A stretch of DNA of 64,000 bases from Methylobacterium sp. J-026 (GTDB lineage: Bacteria; Pseudomonadota; Alphaproteobacteria; Rhizobiales; Beijerinckiaceae), in the NCBI RefSeq assembly GCF_022829585.1, contig NZ_JAKSYC010000156.1, positions 1 to 64,000 of the forward strand, read 5' to 3'. Below the pieces are notes generated by a model that saw only the letters and a program-made list of their open reading frames with translations, was not told the DNA's origin and ran no database searches. How positions within the stretch are numbered: the stretch's first letter is position 1; each line of letters starts with the position of its first letter. A program made the translations under genes and the position numbers. This document shows, piece by piece, positions 7,748 through 18,907 of this stretch.

Positions 7748-8224
7748 ATGACGAGGATGCGACAGCTCGCGGTGCCAGGGTCCATCCGTTTCGCCCTGGG
7801 CGTCGCCCTCCTGGGCTCGGCGCTCGCCGGCTGCACCACCGGCTTCTCGTACATCTCGCGGAACTACGTGGCGCTCACCCCCCAGGTGGTGACGATCGGC
7901 TGCAAGGAGCCCTACGAGGTCTACGACAACCGGCAGCTGCGCCGGATGCTGATCGTCTCGAACGCCCTGCGCGAATATGCCGGCTGCAACCTGAGCGAGG
8001 TCCGGATCGATCCCGAGCCGGAGGCGACCCGGGTCAAGCGCTTCCGCACCGCCGCCCGCGCCTATCTCGACGAGACCGTGCGGGAGGAGTGCCGGGTCAC
8101 CGGCGAGACCGTGTTCGATCCGCTGAAGACCGAGTTCGCCTATGCCTGCGACGCGCCGGTCGAGAGGCGGGGCACGGTGGTGCCGCGCCTGCCCGGCCGC
8201 AATCCGGGCCCCGCCCAGCGCTGA
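7748..8224 (+). CDS. Predicted outer-membrane lipoprotein, unknown function
   Basis: A 158-residue protein with a lipoprotein signal: basic start (MTRMRQ), hydrophobic stretch and lipobox LAGC near residue 29. The mature part has further cysteines (GCKEPYEVY, GCNLSEV, EECRVTG, YACDAP) that could form disulfides in the periplasm. No named domain is recognised. It lies between divergent lexA and the small minus-strand gene at 8.3 kb, and stands as a single-gene unit. Confidence 0.8.
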   Translation: MTRMRQLAVPGSIRFALGVALLGSALAGCTTGFSYISRNYVALTPQVVTIGCKEPYEVYDNRQLRRMLIVSNALREYAGCNLSEVRIDPEPEATRVKRFRTAARAYLDETVREECRVTGETVFDPLKTEFAYACDAPVERRGTVVPRLPGRNPGPAQR

Positions 8225-8291
8225 TCCGCCGGGCCGGAGGGGTCCGGCGTCCCTGACGCGCCGGCCGGGACACCGGTGCCGGGGGGATGCG

Positions 8292-8507
8292 TCAGGCATC
8301 CGGCTTTGGGAAGGTGCGCTCGGTGGCGTCGCCGGCCGCCGCCAGCAGGGCGCGCGCGAAGGCCCGGGCCTCGGCCCGGTCCAGCACGATCGCGGCGGTG
8401 ACCGGCCCGCCCCCGAGATCCGACAGGGCGAGTTCCAGCCGCACCCCCTCGGGCACGGCGCTCGCCTGCAGGCTCCAGCCCGGCCCCCGTTCCGCGCGCT
8501 CCGCCAT
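8292..8507 (-). CDS. Small conserved-looking protein, unknown function
   Basis: A 71-residue frame starting MAERAERGPGW. The sequence reads as one alpha/beta unit: beta-like stretches (WSLQASAV, VRLELALSD, VTAAIVLD) followed by an amphipathic helix (RAEARAFARALLAAAGDA). Small proteins of this shape are common beside transporter genes in these bacteria. No domain is recognised. The clean composition and low-charge tail favour a real gene over a shadow. Confidence 0.5.
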   Translation of the reverse strand: MAERAERGPGWSLQASAVPEGVRLELALSDLGGGPVTAAIVLDRAEARAFARALLAAAGDATERTFPKPDA

Positions 8508-8588
8508 CGCTCAACCCTCCCGGTGCGCCCCGGGAAAACGCCGCAGGCTCCCGCCGGAACTGCCCCGGCCCGGGACTGTTCCCGAGCC

Positions 8589-9830
8589 GTGCCAAGCGCT
8601 TCCCTGCCCCGCCTCGCGGCGTTCCTCAAGACTGCGGGCCCCGGACTCGTGGTGATGCTCGCCGACACCGATGTCGGAAGCCTCATCACGGCGGCCCAGA
8701 GCGGCGCCCGCTGGGGCTACTCGCTGCTGCTCCTGCAGATCCTGCTGGTGCCGATCCTCTACGTCGTCCAGGAGCTGACGGTGCGGCTCGGAACCGCCAC
8801 CGGCCGCGGCCACGGCGAGCTGATCCGGGCGCATTACGGGCCGGTCTGGGCCTGGATTTCCTTTGGCGGCCTCGTGGTCGCCGGGATCGGCGCCATCGTC
8901 ACGGAATTCTCCGGCATCGCCGGCATCGGCGACCTGTTCGGGGTGCCGCGGCTCGTGAGCCTCGGCCTGCCGGCCGCCCTGCTGCTCGGCCTCGTGTTCA
9001 CCGGGAGCTACCGGCGGGTCGAGAGGGTGGCGATCGCGGTCGGCCTGTTCGAGCTGGTCTTCATCGGGCTCGCCGTGGCGGCGCGGCCGGATCCGGGGGC
9101 GATCGTGGCATCCTTCGCCCACATGCCGCTCGGCGACGGCCAGTACCGGGTCCTAATCGCCGCCAATATCGGCGCGGTGATCATGCCGTGGATGATCTTC
9201 TACCAGCAATCGGCGATCGTCGACAAAGGCCTCGGCTGGGACCACGCCAGGCGCTCGCGGCTCGACACGCTCCTGGGCGCGGTGATCTCGCAATGCGTGA
9301 TGGGCGCGATCCTGATCGCGGCGGCCGCCACGATCGGCAAGGCCGGGCAGGGCACGAAGGACGGTCTGCAGACCGTGGGCGACCTCGCGGGGGCCTTCAC
9401 GCCGGCCCTCGGGCCCTGGCTCGGGCAGGTGGTGTTCGGGGTCGGGATCATCGCGGCGGCCTTCGTGGCGCTGAACGTCGTGGCCCTGGCCCTCGCCTGG
9501 GGTTTTGGCGATGTGACGGGCAAGCCGCATTCCCTGGAGCAATCGCCCCGGGAGGCGCCGGCCTTCTACGGCGCCTTCGCGCTGGTGGTGGCGGCCGGCG
9601 CGGTGTCCGTGCAGCTCGTGCCGAATCTCGTGGCGCTCAACATCGCGGTCGAGGTGATGAACGCCCTGCTCCTTCCGCTCGCGCTCGGCCTCCTGATCCT
9701 GCTCGCCACCCGGGCCCTGCCGGAGGGCAAGCGCGTGGACGGCGCCTACAAGTGGGTGGTCTACGCCGTCTCGGGCCTCACGATCGCCTTCGCGATGGTT
9801 GGCGTGCTCGACGGGATCGGCCTGCTCTGA
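8589..9830 (+). CDS. NRAMP-like divalent metal transporter
   Basis: Inner-membrane transporter of the NRAMP (MntH-like) superfamily, 413 residues from a GTG at 8589, with about 11 hydrophobic helices. TM1 begins FLKTAGPGLVVMLADTDVGS, where characterised NRAMPs have a DPGN motif. TM6 reads VIMPWMIFYQQSA in place of the MPH metal motif. The fold is therefore NRAMP but the metal ligands differ, so the substrate (Mn2+, Fe2+, Mg2+ or another) should not be assumed. The frame is open further upstream, but the conserved region starts directly after the chosen GTG. fae follows 62 bp downstream on the same strand. Confidence 0.82.
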   Translation: MPSASLPRLAAFLKTAGPGLVVMLADTDVGSLITAAQSGARWGYSLLLLQILLVPILYVVQELTVRLGTATGRGHGELIRAHYGPVWAWISFGGLVVAGIGAIVTEFSGIAGIGDLFGVPRLVSLGLPAALLLGLVFTGSYRRVERVAIAVGLFELVFIGLAVAARPDPGAIVASFAHMPLGDGQYRVLIAANIGAVIMPWMIFYQQSAIVDKGLGWDHARRSRLDTLLGAVISQCVMGAILIAAAATIGKAGQGTKDGLQTVGDLAGAFTPALGPWLGQVVFGVGIIAAAFVALNVVALALAWGFGDVTGKPHSLEQSPREAPAFYGAFALVVAAGAVSVQLVPNLVALNIAVEVMNALLLPLALGLLILLATRALPEGKRVDGAYKWVVYAVSGLTIAFAMVGVLDGIGLL

Positions 9831-9892
9831 CCCGATTGACGCGGGCGGCGCGATGATGTCTCCCGCGGGCTCCGATCAGGTGGAGTCGAGAC

Positions 9893-10432
9893 ATGCAAGA
9901 GATCTGGTTCCGTACGGGCGAGGCCACGGTGCTGGCGGCCGAGGGCCAGTACACCGACGCCATGCCGGAGGTGCTGATCGGTTCCGTGCGCGGGCCGGTG
10001 GGCCAGGCCTTCGCGTCGATGATGGGGCAGGTCCAGGGCCACACCCGGATGTTCGTGGTCCGCGACCTCAATCAGCTGGTGCGCCCGGCCACGATGATGA
10101 CCACCAAGGTCACGATCCACACGGCCGAGTATGCCGAGCTCCTCGGCGGCGTGGTCCAAGCAGCCACCGGCGACGCGATCGTGGACTGCATCATCGAGGG
10201 CATCCTGCCCAAGGACGGCCTCGACGAGCTGTGCATGATCATCATGATCTGGCTCGATCAGCGCTGCGCCGAGGACGACAACCTCGACCAGAAGGACCTC
10301 TACAGGACCAACTACGAGGCGACGAAGCTCGCCATCGCCCGCGCCCTCAAGGGCGAGCCGACGGTGGACGAGCTGATCGCCAATCGGAAGACCGTGAAGC
10401 ATTACGCGCTGGACGGCGTGATCGAGTACTGA
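9893..10432 (+). CDS. Formaldehyde-activating enzyme (Fae) homologue
   Basis: A 179-residue relative of Fae, which condenses formaldehyde with tetrahydromethanopterin in methylotrophs. Family hallmarks are present: VRGPVGQAFA near 31-41, TTKVTIHT, a DAIV..IIEGILP stretch and NYEATKLAIARALKGEP near 143-159. The histidine that serves as the catalytic base in Fae, in the segment before IG-(P/S)RG, is replaced by Met (AMPEVLIG), so ordinary catalysis is doubtful. It resembles the extra Fae-like paralogues (Fae2/Fae3) of Methylobacterium. A GGTGGAG ribosome site lies 8 bp upstream. Its stop codon abuts that of the convergent Uma2 gene within a TGATCA palindrome. Confidence 0.88.
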   Translation: MQEIWFRTGEATVLAAEGQYTDAMPEVLIGSVRGPVGQAFASMMGQVQGHTRMFVVRDLNQLVRPATMMTTKVTIHTAEYAELLGGVVQAATGDAIVDCIIEGILPKDGLDELCMIIMIWLDQRCAEDDNLDQKDLYRTNYEATKLAIARALKGEPTVDELIANRKTVKHYALDGVIEY

Positions 10433-11622: not shown

Positions 11623-12072
11623 TCAGGCCCGCATCTGGGCGAAGCTCGCGAGCCAGGCCGGCGCGACCCGCATCCCCGCCGGCACCAGCGCGTCCGGCGG
11701 CGGCCGGCGCACGCAATCCTCCAGATAGGCCAGGGATTCCTCAAGCACCGTGCCGGTGAACGGCTTGGCGATCACCGCCGTCGCCCCCGCCATGTCGTCG
11801 CTGAGCGCCCGGGCGTTGGCGGTCATGAACGCGGCCGTGATGCCGCCGAGATCGCGCACCGCATGCGCCACGTCGAGACCCGAGGAGCCGTCCCCGAGGC
11901 GCAGGTCGATGAGGACCAGCTCGGGCCGGGTCTCGTGGACGAGGGCGATGGCCTCGCCCGCGGTCATCGCCGTCCCCACGACGCTGTGGCCGGCCTCCTC
12001 CAGCATCATCTCAATCTGCATCAGGATGAGGGCTTCGTCCTCGACGACGAGGATCCGCAGCGGCTCGGTCAC
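11623..12072 (-). CDS. Single-domain response regulator
   Basis: Receiver-domain protein of 149 residues with acidic pocket E11/D12, phospho-acceptor Asp56 (VLIDLRLG), Thr near 84 and Lys103 (IAKPF). There is no DNA-binding domain; the last 35 residues are an extension rich in Pro and Ala. It starts with a GTG that overlaps the histidine kinase stop (GTGA), so the two are translationally coupled. It should receive phosphate from that kinase and act by protein contact; the downstream partner is not visible. Confidence 0.92.
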   Translation of the reverse strand: MTEPLRILVVEDEALILMQIEMMLEEAGHSVVGTAMTAGEAIALVHETRPELVLIDLRLGDGSSGLDVAHAVRDLGGITAAFMTANARALSDDMAGATAVIAKPFTGTVLEESLAYLEDCVRRPPPDALVPAGMRVAPAWLASFAQMRA

Positions 12073-13190
12073 GGGGCCTCCAGACCGCCGGCCATCTCGC
12101 GCGGCAGGCGTATGCTGACGATCGTGCCCGGATCATTGGTCATCCAGGCGATGCTGGCATTGAGCTGGCGGCAGAGCGTACCGATCAGGCGCTTTCCGAA
12201 GGAGCGCTGCTCCATCGCCTGAACCGGCATGCCGACGCCGTCATCGGCGATCTTGATGGTGACATGCGTGCCGTCCGGCGCCACCGTCACCGAGAGCCGC
12301 CCCGGGCGGTCGTCCGGGAAGGCGTGCTTGAGGGCGTTGGTGATCAACTCGTTCATCATCAACGCCACCGGCGGCGCCTTAGCGACCGGGATCTCCACGG
12401 TCTCCAGGTCCAGGTGCAGGCGGATCCGGTCGCGGCCGGAGCCGCGGACCAGGTCGTTGGCGAGGTCGCGGGCGAACTCGGCCACGTCGAAACGCTCGAC
12501 GTTGTTGGATTGGTAGAGTCGGCGATGGACCGTGCCGAGGGCCTCGACCCGGGTCAGCATCGCCTCCATGGCGGCGCGCGCCGCGGGATCGGTGATCGCC
12601 CGGGTCTGCATGGCCAGCAGCGCCGCGATCATCTGGAGGTTGTTCTTCACCCGGTGATCGACCTCGTGGACCAGCATGGTCTGCGTGGCCAGGGCATCGG
12701 TCAGGTCCCGGGTGCGCTTGGCGACCTCGGCCTCGAAGCGGTCCTTCTCCTGCTGGATCTGCATATGCGCGTCGACGCGGTCGGTGACGTCGAGCTGCGA
12801 GGCGAAGAAGAACAGAACCTCGCCGGACTCGTCGGCGACCGGGCTGAGATAGAGCGCGTTCCAGAACGGCGTCCCGTCCTTGCGATAGTTCAGGATGTCG
12901 ATCGCGATATCGGTGCGGGCCTCGACCGCCTCGCGGATCAGGGCGACGGCGCCGTGGTCGGTCTGTGCGCCCTGGAGAAACCGGCAATTGTGGCCGAGCA
13001 CCTCGGACCGCGTGTAGCCGCTCATCCGCAGGAAGGCGTCGTTGACGTACACGATCGGGTTGTCGGGCAGGCGCGGATTGGTGATGATCATCGCCATCCG
13101 CGTGGCGCGCACCGCCGCGGCGAACGGATCGCCCTTGCCCGGCGCGGCGTCGAGCTGGTCCGTCTGATGCCAGGCGTCGGGTTGTTCCAT
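12069..13190 (-). CDS. LOV-domain (blue-light) HisKA_2 histidine kinase
   Basis: Cytoplasmic sensor kinase of 373 residues with no transmembrane segment. A PAS/LOV domain spans about 22-140 and contains GHNCRFLQG with the flavin-adduct Cys69. Then follow a short coiled coil, the HisKA_2 dimerisation segment with His179 (EVDHRVKNNLQ), and a HATPase with MNELITNALKHAF and DDGVGMP. The LOV motif implies FMN binding and blue-light sensing. The ATG at 13190 has an AGGGA ribosome site; a TTG at 13232 is an alternative. It overlaps its response regulator by 4 bp. Photoreceptor kinases of this build are known from Caulobacter and Brucella. Confidence 0.93.
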   Translation of the reverse strand: MEQPDAWHQTDQLDAAPGKGDPFAAAVRATRMAMIITNPRLPDNPIVYVNDAFLRMSGYTRSEVLGHNCRFLQGAQTDHGAVALIREAVEARTDIAIDILNYRKDGTPFWNALYLSPVADESGEVLFFFASQLDVTDRVDAHMQIQQEKDRFEAEVAKRTRDLTDALATQTMLVHEVDHRVKNNLQMIAALLAMQTRAITDPAARAAMEAMLTRVEALGTVHRRLYQSNNVERFDVAEFARDLANDLVRGSGRDRIRLHLDLETVEIPVAKAPPVALMMNELITNALKHAFPDDRPGRLSVTVAPDGTHVTIKIADDGVGMPVQAMEQRSFGKRLIGTLCRQLNASIAWMTNDPGTIVSIRLPREMAGGLEAP

Positions 13191-13387
13191 CGTCCCTGCT
13201 CTTTCGTGCCCGGCGTTCGTCACCTCCGGCAATCGGCTTCTGCCTGCGCAGTCACAAGCGCTGCCTTAACGGACGATCCACGCGATGGGTTCAGGGCCGG
13301 GGCGCTTTGGCGCCGGATTGGGATAGACAGAACGCCGCACCTGGGCCGCGCGGGCCGGCGCGCCCGCGGCGGCGATCCGGGCCGGCC

Positions 13388-16300
13388 TCAGTGGAAATCC
13401 CGGCTCGGATACACCCGCCGGTCCGGGGGCGCGCCGAAATCCGTGGTCTCGGGCGGCAGCTTCATCCCGGCCGCGCGCAGGTCGCGCAGGAATTCGGTGA
13501 GATCGCGGAATCCCTCGGCCACCAGATGGACCACCCCCTCGGCTCGCTGCACCCGGCCGCGCACGGCGAGGAACCGGGCCTGCATGGCGGCCCGGCGGTT
13601 GGCCTCGAACACCGTCTTCCAGACGATCACGTTGGCGATGCCGGTCTCGTCCTCCAGGGTCAGGAAGACCACGCCCTTGGCGGTGCCCGGCCGCTGGCGG
13701 ATCAGCACGAGGCCCGCCACCGTGACCCGGGCGCCCTGGGGCAGGGCCGGATCGAGATGGGCCCGGGCCGGGATCGCGCCGATCCGGGCGAGCCGGCCGC
13801 GGAAGAACGCGACCGGGTGCCCCTGCAGCGACAGGCCGGTGGCGGCGTAATCCTCGGCCACCGCCTCGGAGAGCGGCAGCGACGGCAGGTCCACCGCCGG
13901 CTCGTGCCGGAACAGGCCGTCATCGGCGTGCCAGGCGAACAGCGGCAGGGGCGCCTCCAGCAGGTGGCCGCGGCGCTCGGCGCCGTCGGCCTTGGCCGCC
14001 CTGCGGGCCGAGGTCCCCTCCAGGGTGCGCACCATCCACAGGGCGGCGCGCCGGTCGAGGCCGAGCGACCGGAACGCGTCGGCCTCGGCGAGCCGCTCCA
14101 GGGCGTTGCGGGGCAGGGCGAGGGCCGCCTGCAGGCCCTCGATGCTGGCATAGCCGTTGGCCCGCAACCGCACGAGCCGGTGCATGGCGGCCTCGGGCAG
14201 ACCGCTCACCTGCCGCAGGCCGAGGCGCACCGCGTGCCGCTTCGGATCCCCGGCCGGCTCCAGGGTGCAGTCCCAGGCGCTGGCATTGACGCAGACACCC
14301 CGCACCTCGACCCCGTGGGCGCGGGCGTCGCGCACCAGCTGGGCCGGCTGGTAGAAGCCCATCGGCTGGGCGTTGAGGATCGCCGCCAGGAACACGTCCG
14401 GGTGCCGGCACTTCATCCAGGCCGAGGCATAGACCAGGAGCGCGAAGCTCGCCGCGTGGCTCTCCGGGAAGCCGTAGGTGGAGAAGCCCTTGATCTGCGC
14501 GAAGCAGCGCTCGGCGAACTCCGCCGGGTAGCCGCGGCGCGTCATCCCGCCCACGAATTTTTGCTCGAAGCCGCCGATCGAGCCGACATGGCGGAAGGTC
14601 GCCATCGCCCGGCGCAACCCGTCGGCCTCGGCCGGGGTGAAGCCGGCGGCCGTGATGGCGATCTGCATCGCGTGTTCCTGGAACAGCGGCACCCCATAGG
14701 TCTTGTGCAGCACCGTGTGCAGCTCGTCCGCCGGCCCGTGGTCCGGATGCGGGGCCGGATAGACCACCGGGTCGATCCCCGAGCGCCGCCGCAGGTAGGG
14801 ATGGACCATGTCGCCCTGGATCGGGCCGGGGCGCACGATCGCGACCTGGACCACGAGGTCGTAAAATTCCTTCGGCTTGAGGCGCGGCAGCATCGACATC
14901 TGCGCCCGGCTCTCGACCTGGAACACGCCGACGGAATCGGCCTTCGCCAGCATCGCGTAGGTCTCGGGATCCTCCGGGGGCAGGTCGGCCAGGGTCTCGT
15001 AGAAGGCGCCGTGGTCCTTCTCCAAAAAATCGAGGCCGCGCTTGAGGCAGGTCAGCATGCCCAGCGCCAGCACGTCGACCTTCATCAGGCCGATCGCGTC
15101 GATGTCGTCCTTGTCCCACTCGATGAAGGTCCGGTCCGCCATGGCGCCGTTGCCCACCGGCACGGTCTCGTCGAGGCGGCCGCGGGTCAGGATGAAGCCG
15201 CCGACATGCTGCGACAGGTGGCGGGGGAAGCCGATCAGCTGGTGGGCGAGATCGAGCGCCTGCCGGAGCGCGGGGTTGTCGGGGTCGAGGCCGGCCTCGC
15301 GCACGTGCTTGTCCGGCACGTCCTTGCCCCAGGAGCCCCAGACCGTGTCGGCGATCGAAGCGGTCACGTCCTCGGTGAGGCCCAGAACCTTGCCGACCTC
15401 GCGGATCGCCATGCGCGGGCGATAGTGGATCACCGTGGCGCAGAGGGCGGCCCGCTCCCGGCCATAGCGGTCGTAGAGGTGCTGGATCACCTCCTCCCGG
15501 CGTTCGTGCTCGAAATCGACGTCGATGTCGGGGGGCTCGCCCCGGTTCTCCGAGATGAACCGGGCGAACAGCAGCCGGTGCTTGGACGGGTCCACGGCGG
15601 TGATGCCGAGGCAGAAGCACACGGCGGAATTGGCCGCCGAGCCGCGGCCCTGACAGAGGATGCCCTTGCCGCGGGCGAACTCGACCACGTCGAACAGAGT
15701 CAGGAAGTAGCGGGCATAGTCCAACTGGGCGATGAGCTGCAGTTCCTCGCGGAGCGTCGCCTCGACGGCGGCCGGGATGGTGCCGGCATAGCGCCAGCCC
15801 GCCCGCTCCCAGGTCTTCTCCTCCAGGTATGCCTGGGGCGTGCGCCCGGGGGGCACCGGCTCGTCGGGATACTCGTAGTGCAGCTGCGACAGGTGGAAGT
15901 CGCAGCTCTCGGCGATCTCCATCGTGCGGGCGAGCGCCTCCGGATGGTCGGCGAACAGCCGGGCCATCTCGGCGGGCGACTTCAGGTGGCGCTCGGCATT
16001 GGCCTCCAGCCGGTAGCCGGCCTCCCCGATCCGGCAGCGCTCACGGATGCAGGCCACCACGTCCTGGAGCGGGCGCCTGTCGGGATGGTGGTAGAGCGCG
16101 TCCGAGACCGCCACCATGGGCGCTCCGGAGCGTTCGCCCAGCTCGGCCAGCAGACCGAGCCGGCGGCGCTCATCGCCGCGCCTGGCGTGGCTCGCCCCGA
16201 GCCAGGTCCGGCCCGGGGCGGCCGCGGCCAGGGCTTCGAGCCGGCCCAAGAAACCGTCCGGGGGGCGCAGGCGCCGGCCCGGCGGGATAGCGATGAACAT

Positions 16301-16678
16301 CTGTCCCTCGGCGGCCTCCAGCATCTCGGCGAAGGAGAACTGGCACGCCCCCTTGCGGCTGCGCCGGTTCCCTCGGGTGAGCAGCCGGCACAGGCGGCCC
16401 CAGGCCTGCCGGTCCGCGGGATAGGTCACGGCCTCGAACCCGTCCTCGGTGACGAGGCGCACCCCCGGCAGGATGCGGATCGTCAAACCCTCCGCCTTGA
16501 GGGCCTGCGCCGCCGCATGCGCCCGCACCACCCCGGCGACCGTGTTGCGGTCGGCGATCCCGAGGGCCGCGAACCCGTAGGCCGCCCCCTGCACGACGTA
16601 TTCCTGCGGATGCGAGGCGCCGCGCAAAAACGAGAAATTCGTGGTGAGGGCGAGCTCGGCGTAGGCGGGATGGCTCAC
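13388..16678 (-). CDS. dnaE2: Error-prone DNA polymerase DnaE2 (ImuC)
   Basis: C-family translesion polymerase of 1096 residues. The N-terminal PHP domain starts [20 protein letters not shown]. The polymerase core contains [15 protein letters not shown], where the catalytic aspartates lie. Helix-hairpin-helix and OB-fold regions follow ([20 protein letters not shown] near the C-terminus). DnaE2 works with ImuA and ImuB in SOS mutagenesis. The GTG start at 16678 overlaps the imuB stop as GTGA, so translation is coupled. It is the last gene of the three-gene operon controlled by the LexA box at 18939. Confidence 0.95.
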
Positions 16679-18192
16679 GCGAACACCCCGTGGACGAACC
16701 ACGCGGCCGGGCGGCCGGGGGCGTGCGGCCCGTCGCGGTAGAGCCAGAGCCGCCGGCCGGCCTCGCACTCCACCCGGTAATAGTCCCGGGCCGCGCCGGG
16801 CGCGTGCCACCACTCGGCCGCGATCCGCTCCGGCCCCTCGGCATGGACGATCGCGTGGATCCGGGCGCGCCAGCGGAAGCGCCGGGGCGGTCCCTCGGGC
16901 ACCGTGGACAGCACGTCGAGGGCGGCCTCGCCCCGGGGGAACAGCACCAGGGGCCGGGGCGGGCGGTGATCCGGCCAGGATGTCGGGGCGCGGGTCCAGG
17001 GGAGGGGCTGGGCGGCCCGCTCCGGGATGTGGCTCGCCCGCGCCCCGAGGCGCAGGAGCGGCCGGCCGAGGCGCTGCGCCAGGGCGTCCGCGAGGGCGTC
17101 GATGCCGTCGCCCTCGGGCGCCGCCCCGAGTTCCGTCTGGCGGGCCGACAGGGCGCCCGTCACCGTCACGGTGAGCGCCACGGTCTCGAAGCCGAAGCCG
17201 GCATCGAGGCCGGCGCCGAGGCGGTCGAGGCGCAGGGAGACCAGGGCGGCGACGCGCTCGGGGCAGCGCTCGGGCCAGGACAGGCCGAGATCGAGGACGC
17301 GCATCACCCCGTCGACCCGGTACAGCACGAGGCGCAGGGCGCAGGCGCCGAGCCCGTCCCGCTCCAGCCGGGGGGCGATCTCGGCCATCAGCAGCCGGGC
17401 GGTGACGACGATGTCCGATTGCCGGCCGATCGGGTCGAGGAAGCCCCGGGCGGCCCGATACGCGGCCTCCGCGGTGAGCGGCGCCAGGGGCTCGGGCCGG
17501 CGGCCCATCGCCTGGTCGAGGCGCAGCAGCAGCGCCTCGCCGAAGCGGCGGGCGAGCGGCCCCCGGGCCAGCGCGTCGATCTCGCCGACCCGGCGCAGGC
17601 CGAGCCGCCGCAGGCCCGAGACCGTGCCGGGATCGAGGCGCAGGGCCTCCACGGGCAGCGCCCGCAGAGGCTCCGCGGCCCCGCCGGGGGGTACGATCAC
17701 CCGGTCGGAGGCCCCGTAGCGGGCCAGCGCGAAGGCGCCGCCGGGCGTGTCGGCGAGCGCGATCCGGGCGGGGATTTTTGACCGCGCCAGGCGCCCGGCG
17801 AGGTCGTCCACGAGGGGCCCCTCGCCGCCGCGCAAATGGCTCGCCCCGGCGACGTCGATATAGAACCCGTCCGCCGCCTCGGCCGGCCCGAACGGCGCCA
17901 CCCCGGGGGCGTAGCCCTCCGCCCAGCGGCAGAGCCGTAGAAGGGCCGCCCGGTCGGAGTCGGGATCGGCGGGATGGACCTGGAGCGGCACGCCGATCCG
18001 CGCCCGGACCCGGCCCAGGGGCTCGCCGGGCCGCAGGCCCAGGGCGCGGGCCTCCGGGTCGAGGGCGAGGAACCGCAGGCCGCCGGCCCCCTCGGCCGCC
18101 ACCGCGAGCGGGCCTTGATCAGGCGCGAGACCGGCCCGCCGCAGCCGCGTCACGGGCCAGTGGCTCAGGCAGACGCAGACGATGCGCGGCAT
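16675..18192 (-). CDS. imuB: Y-family polymerase-like protein ImuB
   Basis: Catalytically inactive Y-family polymerase relative that acts as the hub of the SOS mutasome, contacting the beta clamp, ImuA and DnaE2. The 505-residue protein begins [19 protein letters not shown] where active polymerases have the first metal aspartate (DxDxFF), which is absent here. Little-finger-like sequence lies in the middle and a long C-terminal tail mediates contacts in the family. The ATG at 18192 lies within imuA (74-bp overlap) and the stop overlaps dnaE2 by 4 bp, a tightly coupled operon. Confidence 0.92.
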
Positions 18193-18907
18193 GGTCCCAC
18201 TCCAGAAGCCAGGCGCCGCCCCGCCCGTTGCGGCAGCGCTCGAGCCGCGCCCGCCAGCGCGGGTTGTCCAGGGTGCCGAACCGGTCCCGGGCGGCCGGGG
18301 CCGAGGCGATCCGCCAGCGGGTGGCGGCACCGTTGGGCAGCCCGGCCTCGGCGGGCCGCAGGATCACCAGGAGCGGCGGCGCGTCGCCTTCCCCCCCTTC
18401 GGCGGCGAGCTGCAGGCGCCGGCCCGGCTTCAGCGGCAGGCCGTCCGCGAGCAGACCGACGAGCGCCGGCAGGGCGCGGGCGTGGAGCGCCGCCTCCAGG
18501 GCGCGGAGCACCTCCGCGTCGCTGCCGGCCTCCAAGAGCAGCAGCCGGGCCGGATCGAGGCCGAGGCCGGCCAGGCCGTGACCGTGGGGCAGGGGCTGGT
18601 TCGGCGCGGCGGCGATCAGCGCCGCGCCCTCCGCGCGGGCGAGGTGGAGGGCGCAGAGCGCCAGGGCGAAGCCCAGGGCCGCGCTCGCATCCGCAGGCTC
18701 GGCCGGGGCGACCTCGTGCGGCGGCCCGAGGGCCAGCCCGCCGCCGGGCAGATGCGCGTCGACCGCCGTCAGGCCCAGCGGCAGGACCGGTCGCGGGGCC
18801 GCCGGGGCGCCGGGACCCGCCAGGCGCACCCGCAGGGCCGCCAGCTGCTCCCGGGGGCTGCCGGGAGCGGGATCCCGCCCGGTCTGGTTCGCAGGGTCCA
18901 GCCCCAT
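18119..18907 (-). CDS. imuA: Mutasome protein ImuA
   Basis: RecA/SulA-like protein of 262 residues, first gene of imuA-imuB-dnaE2. Visible features are PLGLTAVDAHLPGGGLALGPPHEV, a RecA-like loop region, and LLLLEAGSDAEVLRALEAAL. ImuA has lost ATPase motifs in most family members. The ATG at 18907 lies 31 bp downstream of an exact LexA box, so expression should be induced by DNA damage. The 3' end overlaps imuB. Confidence 0.9.
   Translation of the reverse strand: MGLDPANQTGRDPAPGSPREQLAALRVRLAGPGAPAAPRPVLPLGLTAVDAHLPGGGLALGPPHEVAPAEPADASAALGFALALCALHLARAEGAALIAAAPNQPLPHGHGLAGLGLDPARLLLLEAGSDAEVLRALEAALHARALPALVGLLADGLPLKPGRRLQLAAEGGEGDAPPLLVILRPAEAGLPNGAATRWRIASAPAARDRFGTLDNPRWRARLERCRNGRGGAWLLEWDHAAHRLRLPEPLARDAAAAGRSRA

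Follow-up and report, generated by a model that had tools for sequence, protein, structure and literature searches.

Fae2, an old, well-conserved Fae paralogue with methionine in the His22 column

The fae2 gene and its surroundings in Methylobacterium

The window (the whole stretch of DNA analysed, 64,000 nucleotides from Methylobacterium sp. J-026) contains a rightwards-transcribed open reading frame of 179 codons that starts with ATG at 9893 and whose stop codon ends at 10432. Its product is Fae2, an old, well-conserved paralogue of the formaldehyde-activating enzyme (Fae). The gene and the features upstream of it are as follows.

8142–9830, + strand: open reading frame for an Nramp-type transporter (PF01566), start uncertain, 62 bp upstream of fae2
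9836–9861, + strand: promoter-like element recognised from related loci, TTGACG (9836–9841) followed by ATGATGTCT (9853–9861)
9878–9885, + strand: Shine-Dalgarno-like AGGTGGAG, 7 nt before the fae2 start codon, recognised by eye
9893–10432, + strand: fae2, a Fae-family protein of 179 aa without the catalytic His (PF08714, 186.3 bits; TIGR03126, 121.7 bits)

The motifs NYEATKLAI, VRGPVGQAFA, IIEGILP and AMPEVLIG, which the first-pass annotation had read in this protein, are all found in the reading frame where it had placed them. The match to the Fae domain PF08714 exceeds the cut-off of 27 bits, and phmmer searches of PDB sequences relate the protein to Fae of M. extorquens (1y5y; E = 3.6e-18, residues 16–170). 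The score against the equivalog model TIGR03126 lies 3.7 bits above its cut-off of 118.05; two beta-proteobacterial Fae2 proteins score 135.6 and 136.0, Fae3 scores 105.5, Fae1 scores 261.6, and another Fae2 (locus L112) falls below the cut-off with 117.0. The automatic label 'formaldehyde-activating enzyme' thus reaches a His-less protein by a thin margin and calls for caution in naming. Besides the window gene (L002), the genome of the window carries two more Fae genes, the canonical L001 and L003, and three named relatives, M. fujisawaense DSM 5686 among them, are 100% identical over Fae2. An AlphaFold2 model of Fae2 made from 22 close homologues has a mean pLDDT of 38.9.

The sequence TTGAC precedes the fae2 start codon by 50–103 nt in 77 of 78 loci from related Methylobacterium (L033–L109 and L111), and a strict form, TTGAC followed at one of two distances by TGnTGTCT, is present in 40 of the 78, with related forms including GGTGTTT. 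The element is kept in related species with or without the Nramp gene upstream; a simple consensus promoter scan reported no promoter upstream of fae2. From the conservation of these letters, fae2 seems to have its own promoter.

Of 80 related loci, only 16 have the Nramp gene beside fae2, mostly those of the closest relatives (three loci are too short upstream), and the metal-related role that the transporter had suggested was therefore set aside. Upstream of fae2 in 73 of the 80 is a gene for a lipoprotein-like product with no Pfam match. None of the queried one-carbon (C1) genes is near fae2 in any of 79 loci within Methylobacterium. To the right, a leftwards-transcribed Uma2-family gene (PF05685; 10433–11074), present beside fae2 in only some related loci, has a stop codon that begins directly after that of fae2. 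Further rightwards in the window are a PAS/HisKA_2 sensor kinase with a LOV-like NCRFLQ motif (seen by eye) and a response regulator alongside (11623–13232), a mutagenesis-cassette-like group of a DnaE2-like polymerase with ImuB- and ImuA-like genes (13388–18907; polymerase domains from profile matches, the DnaE2, ImuA and ImuB names by eye), and a collagen-like protein with Gly-X-Y repeats (PF01391; 19005–19949).

Active-site residues and phylogeny of Fae2

We take His22 to be the acid catalyst of Fae, and Gln88 to be a mobile residue of the coenzyme site whose amide inverts upon coenzyme binding. His22 was reportedly named as the acid catalyst by Acree et al. in 2005. The corresponding codons of fae2 are listed here with the residue counts from an alignment of distinct Fae proteins.

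9962–9964, + strand: codon of Met24, in the column of Fae1 His22 (Met in 132/132 Fae2)
9968–9970, + strand: codon of Glu26, in the column of Fae1 Asp24 (Glu in 132/132 Fae2 and 25/25 Fae3)
10157–10159, + strand: codon of Gln89, in the column of Fae1 Gln88 (Gln in 277/277 proteins)

The alignment derives from 325 Fae genes of the fetched loci, with some genes counted twice; with one N-terminal fragment dropped, it contains 277 distinct cropped proteins, typed by best match as 109 Fae1, 132 Fae2 (78 from Methylobacterium-type loci and 54 from elsewhere), 25 Fae3 and 11 Fae4-like. In the phmmer register, Ala23, Met24 and Gly30 of the window protein sit on Ala21, His22 and Gly28 of 1y5y. The register at the His22 column is secure because these flanks are nearly invariant (Ala21 in 273/277, Gly28 in 277/277) and their spacing is equal in Fae1 and Fae2.

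The His22 column contains His in all Fae1 (109/109) and all Fae4-like proteins (11/11), Met throughout Fae2, and Glu in each of the 25 Fae3. The replacement by Met spans Fae2 of alpha-, beta- and gammaproteobacteria, and the residues of the A-M-P-E motif are each present in 132/132. The Asp24 column is Asp in 108 of the 109 Fae1 proteins and Glu in one, and Asn in all 11 Fae4-like proteins. Of the two residues expected of a Fae1, the window protein therefore has the glutamine (Gln89) and lacks the histidine (Met24). The proposal of the first-pass annotation that Met occupies the catalytic His position is confirmed by both the phmmer register and the 277-protein alignment, and the family-wide comparison that it had suggested as a check places no catalytic His elsewhere in Fae2. 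His170 of Fae2 aligns with His164 of Fae1, with His in 132/132 Fae2 and 109/109 Fae1; His50 aligns with Phe49 of Fae1 and is common to Fae3 and Fae4-like proteins too. The general description in that annotation, a Fae paralogue of uncharacterised role that has Met for the catalytic His and keeps the rest of the family core, likewise stands.

Compared with Fae1 of M. extorquens AM1 (PDB 1y5y, 1y60), Fae2 is of the same family and retains Gln88, Lys71 and Glu11 (each in 277/277 distinct Fae proteins) and nearly always Gly85, but differs in having Met for His22, Glu for Asp24, and changes in the 79–87 segment and at residues 121–122. The Fae1-invariant residues altered in or near this segment are N70 (Thr in 102, Pro in 16 and Ser in 14 of the 132 Fae2), Q79 (Tyr in 117), Q82 (Leu in 132), M83 (Leu in 108, Phe in 24), F84 (Gly in 132), P86 and A87 (Val in 132). 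H121, His in 104/109 Fae1, is Asp in 132/132 Fae2, and W122, nearly invariant in Fae1, is altered as well. His22 is thus not the only presumed active-site residue altered in Fae2, and pterin binding by Fae2 is uncertain because of the changes around 79–87 and at 121–122.

In an unrooted tree of 90 Fae proteins chosen as representatives (quick IQ-TREE run scored by SH-aLRT alone, archaeal Fae left out), Fae1 (99), Fae2 (99), Fae3 (96) and the Fae4-like proteins (98) each form one clade. The window protein falls inside the Fae2 clade and carries A-M-P-E, and it belongs to the Fae2 subfamily on both counts. Fae2 and Fae3 form a joint group (SH-aLRT 98); for the tree, the program warned of long branches meeting. 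Since the two subfamilies group together, His22 was probably lost once, before they split, as the simplest reading of the unrooted tree. Fae3 also resembles Fae2 in lacking His22 and in the Pro-Glu that follows, but it has Glu rather than Met, shares 34–41% identity with the window protein, and, in all 15 loci inspected, has none of the queried C1 genes within 3 kb in the same orientation; one of its loci (L307) has a match resembling trimethylamine N-oxide (TMAO) demethylase on the opposite strand, with 26% identity.

Fae2 was found at E ≤ 1e-60 in all 111 Methylobacterium genomes searched and is single-copy in 110. Ten Methylobacterium genomes that have fewer than three Fae genes were checked; each has Fae2 as its non-canonical copy, and Fae3 is therefore the one lost. 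The gene is under purifying selection, with a median dN/dS of 0.14 over 595 sampled pairs; a smaller Fae1 set, with 376 pairs, gives a median of 0.07. Two different fae2 genes (L102, L107) are present in a single metagenome bin, Beijerinckiaceae bacterium M52. Viral copies of Fae were also sought and none was confirmed.

Co-occurrence with Fae1 and neighbours outside Methylobacterium

Fae2 keeps company with Fae1. Among 297 genomes searched from the order of the window, 59 have a Fae1-type match above 200 bits, and at least 34 carry Fae2 (typed by sequence), all 34 falling within the 59. A second order sample of 250 genomes, around G711, contains 15 with Fae2, and all 15 have a Fae1-type match above 200 bits. 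Two assemblies of the genus sample, G024 and G079, have fae2 without a full Fae1 match. The first was not taken as evidence: its mch contig stops 0.5 kb past mch, and in the genome of the window fae1 is located 2.3 kb past mch. The second assembly is 70% complete.

Outside Methylobacterium, 56 Fae2 loci of at least 4.5 kb (two of which, L112 and L297, are probably one genome) were inspected for neighbours that were picked after viewing the loci; the counts carry no chance level. The last gene of fhcBADC, fhcC, immediately precedes fae2, in the same orientation, in five of the 56 (L175 from Azoarcus sp. KH32C, L177 from Aquabacterium olei, L201, L209 and L237), and pabB follows fae2 in four of these five. 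The folD gene is upstream on the same strand in six, at 104–133 bp in five and at 1.7 kb in one, all from one family. A carbonic anhydrase gene lies 26–77 bp upstream on the same strand in ten loci of one genus (L203, L279–L283, L286, L293, L294 and L302; PF00484 was tested in L282 and L294). Since aldehydes are also among the compounds that carbonic anhydrases can hydrate, the fae2-linked enzyme could conceivably hydrate formaldehyde. In a single locus (L296:1369–5190) the TMAO demethylase gene tdm is 51 bp upstream on the same strand, preceded by the trimethylamine (TMA) monooxygenase gene tmm, and the ETF alpha gene is directly upstream, also on the same strand, in one of the 56. Family checks on representatives gave 1186 bits for tdm (cut-off 1100) and 798 for tmm (cut-off 675), and confirmed folD and carbonic anhydrase in two loci each. 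The fae2 gene of Azospirillum oryzae is part of a stretch annotated like glycine betaine demethylation, with GbcA-like and GbcB-like scores below the cut-offs.

None of the queried neighbours is present in 33 of the 56 loci, and the linkage is a recurring hint rather than a rule. The linked fhcBADC, folD, TMAO demethylase and carbonic anhydrase genes suggest a place for Fae2 in the metabolism of C1-pterins or formaldehyde rather than in signalling. A limited literature search, which included the consulted portions of PMC5520151 and PMC13300288, found no description of fae2 gene linkages.

Genetic evidence and possible roles of Fae2

Methylobacterium aquaticum 22A is described in the consulted text of PMC10613068 as having two fae genes, of which fae2 is Maq22A_1p31155 (consulted part of PMC7356819). 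This locus tag was tied to a sequence through the plasmid that it names: a protein search finds a single Fae-family place on pMaq22A_1p, an orthologue 91% identical to the window protein in which AMPEVLIG is present and no notable difference was seen. According to the same part of PMC7356819, deletion of fae2 in the wild-type background lowers the growth rate on methanol; on methanol plus succinate it lowers the yield with a normal growth rate, and in a delta-mxaF background growth is like that of the parent. Deletion of fae1 in the wild-type background abolishes growth on methanol (PMC7356819, same portion), and Fae2 thus does not replace Fae1 in vivo. A fae mutant of M. extorquens AM1 also fails to grow on methanol in the published account as consulted; the presence of fae2 in AM1 is presumed from its occurrence in every Methylobacterium genome searched.

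Because these fae1 mutants fail on methanol although fae2 should remain, native Fae2 provides no normal Fae turnover. Of the suggestion of the first-pass annotation that the methionine implies binding without normal turnover, the lack of normal turnover is thereby upheld for the native protein, and its example of a sensor or carrier role is neither favoured nor contradicted by these results. As an account of the protein the suggestion is incomplete, because the Met is subfamily-wide and is accompanied by the Asp24-to-Glu change and an altered 79–87 segment, and because an acid role of Glu26 or use of another carrier is equally open.

The reading we prefer, for which the case seems to us evenly balanced, is that Fae2 is an accessory pterin- or formaldehyde-binding protein that acts beside Fae1 in C1 metabolism, with weak or altered catalysis. 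In this view the Fae cleft would still hold a reduced pterin, or the adduct of that pterin with formaldehyde; lacking the His acid, Fae2 would not turn over as Fae1 does, and it may buffer formaldehyde or methylene-pterin, or hand it on, when flux is high, with Glu26 perhaps providing slow catalysis. Speaking for this half-secure reading are the invariant Met (132/132) and Gln88 (277/277), the Fae2–Fae3 clade, presence in 111/111 genomes, purifying selection, the company of Fae1, the C1 neighbours, and the phenotype of the 22A fae2 deletion. Speaking against it are the altered residues in and near 79–87, the lack of the queried C1 neighbours in Methylobacterium (0/79) and of any queried neighbour in 33/56 outside loci, the restriction of carbonic anhydrase to one genus and of folD to one family, the two assemblies with fae2 and no full Fae1 match, the normal growth rate of the 22A deletion on methanol plus succinate, and the null effects of deletion in the delta-mxaF background of 22A and in Methyloversatilis. 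For the last, the consulted part of PMC5023235 reports that deletions of genes named fae2 and fae3 had no growth effect, and those names may differ from the subfamilies used here; the fae2 of Methylosinus, another published name that may not match Fae2 as defined here, shows moderate expression, close to that of fhc genes, in the text consulted.

A lesser possibility, though one to be taken seriously, is that Fae2 is a true catalyst in which Glu26 protonates the carbinolamine, and whose substrate may be tetrahydrofolate (H4F) or a hydroxymethyl adduct rather than tetrahydromethanopterin (H4MPT). Glu26 is two residues past the lost His and, from the i, i+2 spacing in a presumed strand, presumably lies on the same strand face, where it is a possible replacement acid; the Asp24 column favours this, being Glu in every Fae2 and Fae3 against 1/109 Fae1. 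The position of folD directly upstream in five loci and of TMAO demethylase with TMA monooxygenase in one is in keeping with such a catalyst, and a methanotroph metabolic model is reported to fit best with a different Fae homologue, Fae1-2, acting with H4F (consulted portion of PMC11748545). Against this reading, the folD linkage is confined to one family and the fhcBADC linkage points to H4MPT.

It is unlikely that Fae2 is a regulatory partner, either in mixed pentamers with Fae1, docked on Fhc, or as a sensor of formaldehyde or methylene-pterin. The consistent company of Fae1 in the two order samples and the location of fae2 directly after fhcC in five loci would fit such a role, but by inspection no regulator or signalling gene recurs as a direct neighbour in the loci examined. 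To our knowledge, EfgA is not a member of the Fae family. This formaldehyde sensor of M. extorquens (PMC8153426, as consulted) was used as a comparator for the sensor idea only. The consulted part of a Methylotuvimicrobium study (PMC11748545) describes five Fae groups, three of them of unknown function, and suggests that the uncharacterised ones may regulate, sense or have a folate-linked role, which speaks for the regulatory reading; Fae2 presumably belongs to one of its uncharacterised groups 2, 3 and 4. A term search of the main text of PMC11748545 found no mention of histidine, active site or catalytic residue.

A more elaborate scheme, which we consider decidedly speculative, is that Fae2 and Fae3 arose from Fae with a single His loss and became a handover protein for C1 units, in which Glu26 of Fae2 would load and unload formaldehyde on a pterin and pass it between a folate side (FolD, TMAO demethylase) and a methanopterin side (Fhc). 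If true, two C1 carriers that are thought to meet via free formaldehyde or formate would be connected through a protein. Finally, it is very improbable that Fae2 is a plain weak isoenzyme of Fae1 with a dispensable His and a Met change of little effect: the TIGR03126 name and the mild methanol defect of the 22A fae2 mutant (as published, in the part consulted) agree with this, but native Fae2 rescues no fae1 mutant of 22A or, presumably, of AM1, the His-to-Met change is absolute over the sampled subfamily, and a Fae2 can fall below the TIGR03126 cut-off that Fae1 far exceeds (L112 as against 261.6 bits).

The Fae2 subfamily was already known; what this analysis adds is its His-to-Met and Asp-to-Glu signature, the corresponding Glu of Fae3, the co-occurrence with Fae1, and the linked genes. 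A literature search that did not include the original Fae papers of 2000 and 2005 found no report of the missing His in Fae2 and no measured binding or activity of a Met-type Fae2, and the Asp-to-Glu signature, the Fae3 Glu and the Fae1 company were not met in it either, within its limited depth. The His loss and Asp-to-Glu change, together with the company of Fae1 and the linkages to fhcBADC–pabB, folD, carbonic anhydrase and tmm–tdm, make the role of this small soluble protein directly testable.

The Fae4-like proteins (L135, L159–L162, L176, L235, L236, L252, L303 and L304) keep the His, mostly within the sequence AHIN, and in some genomes they are the only Fae-family match.
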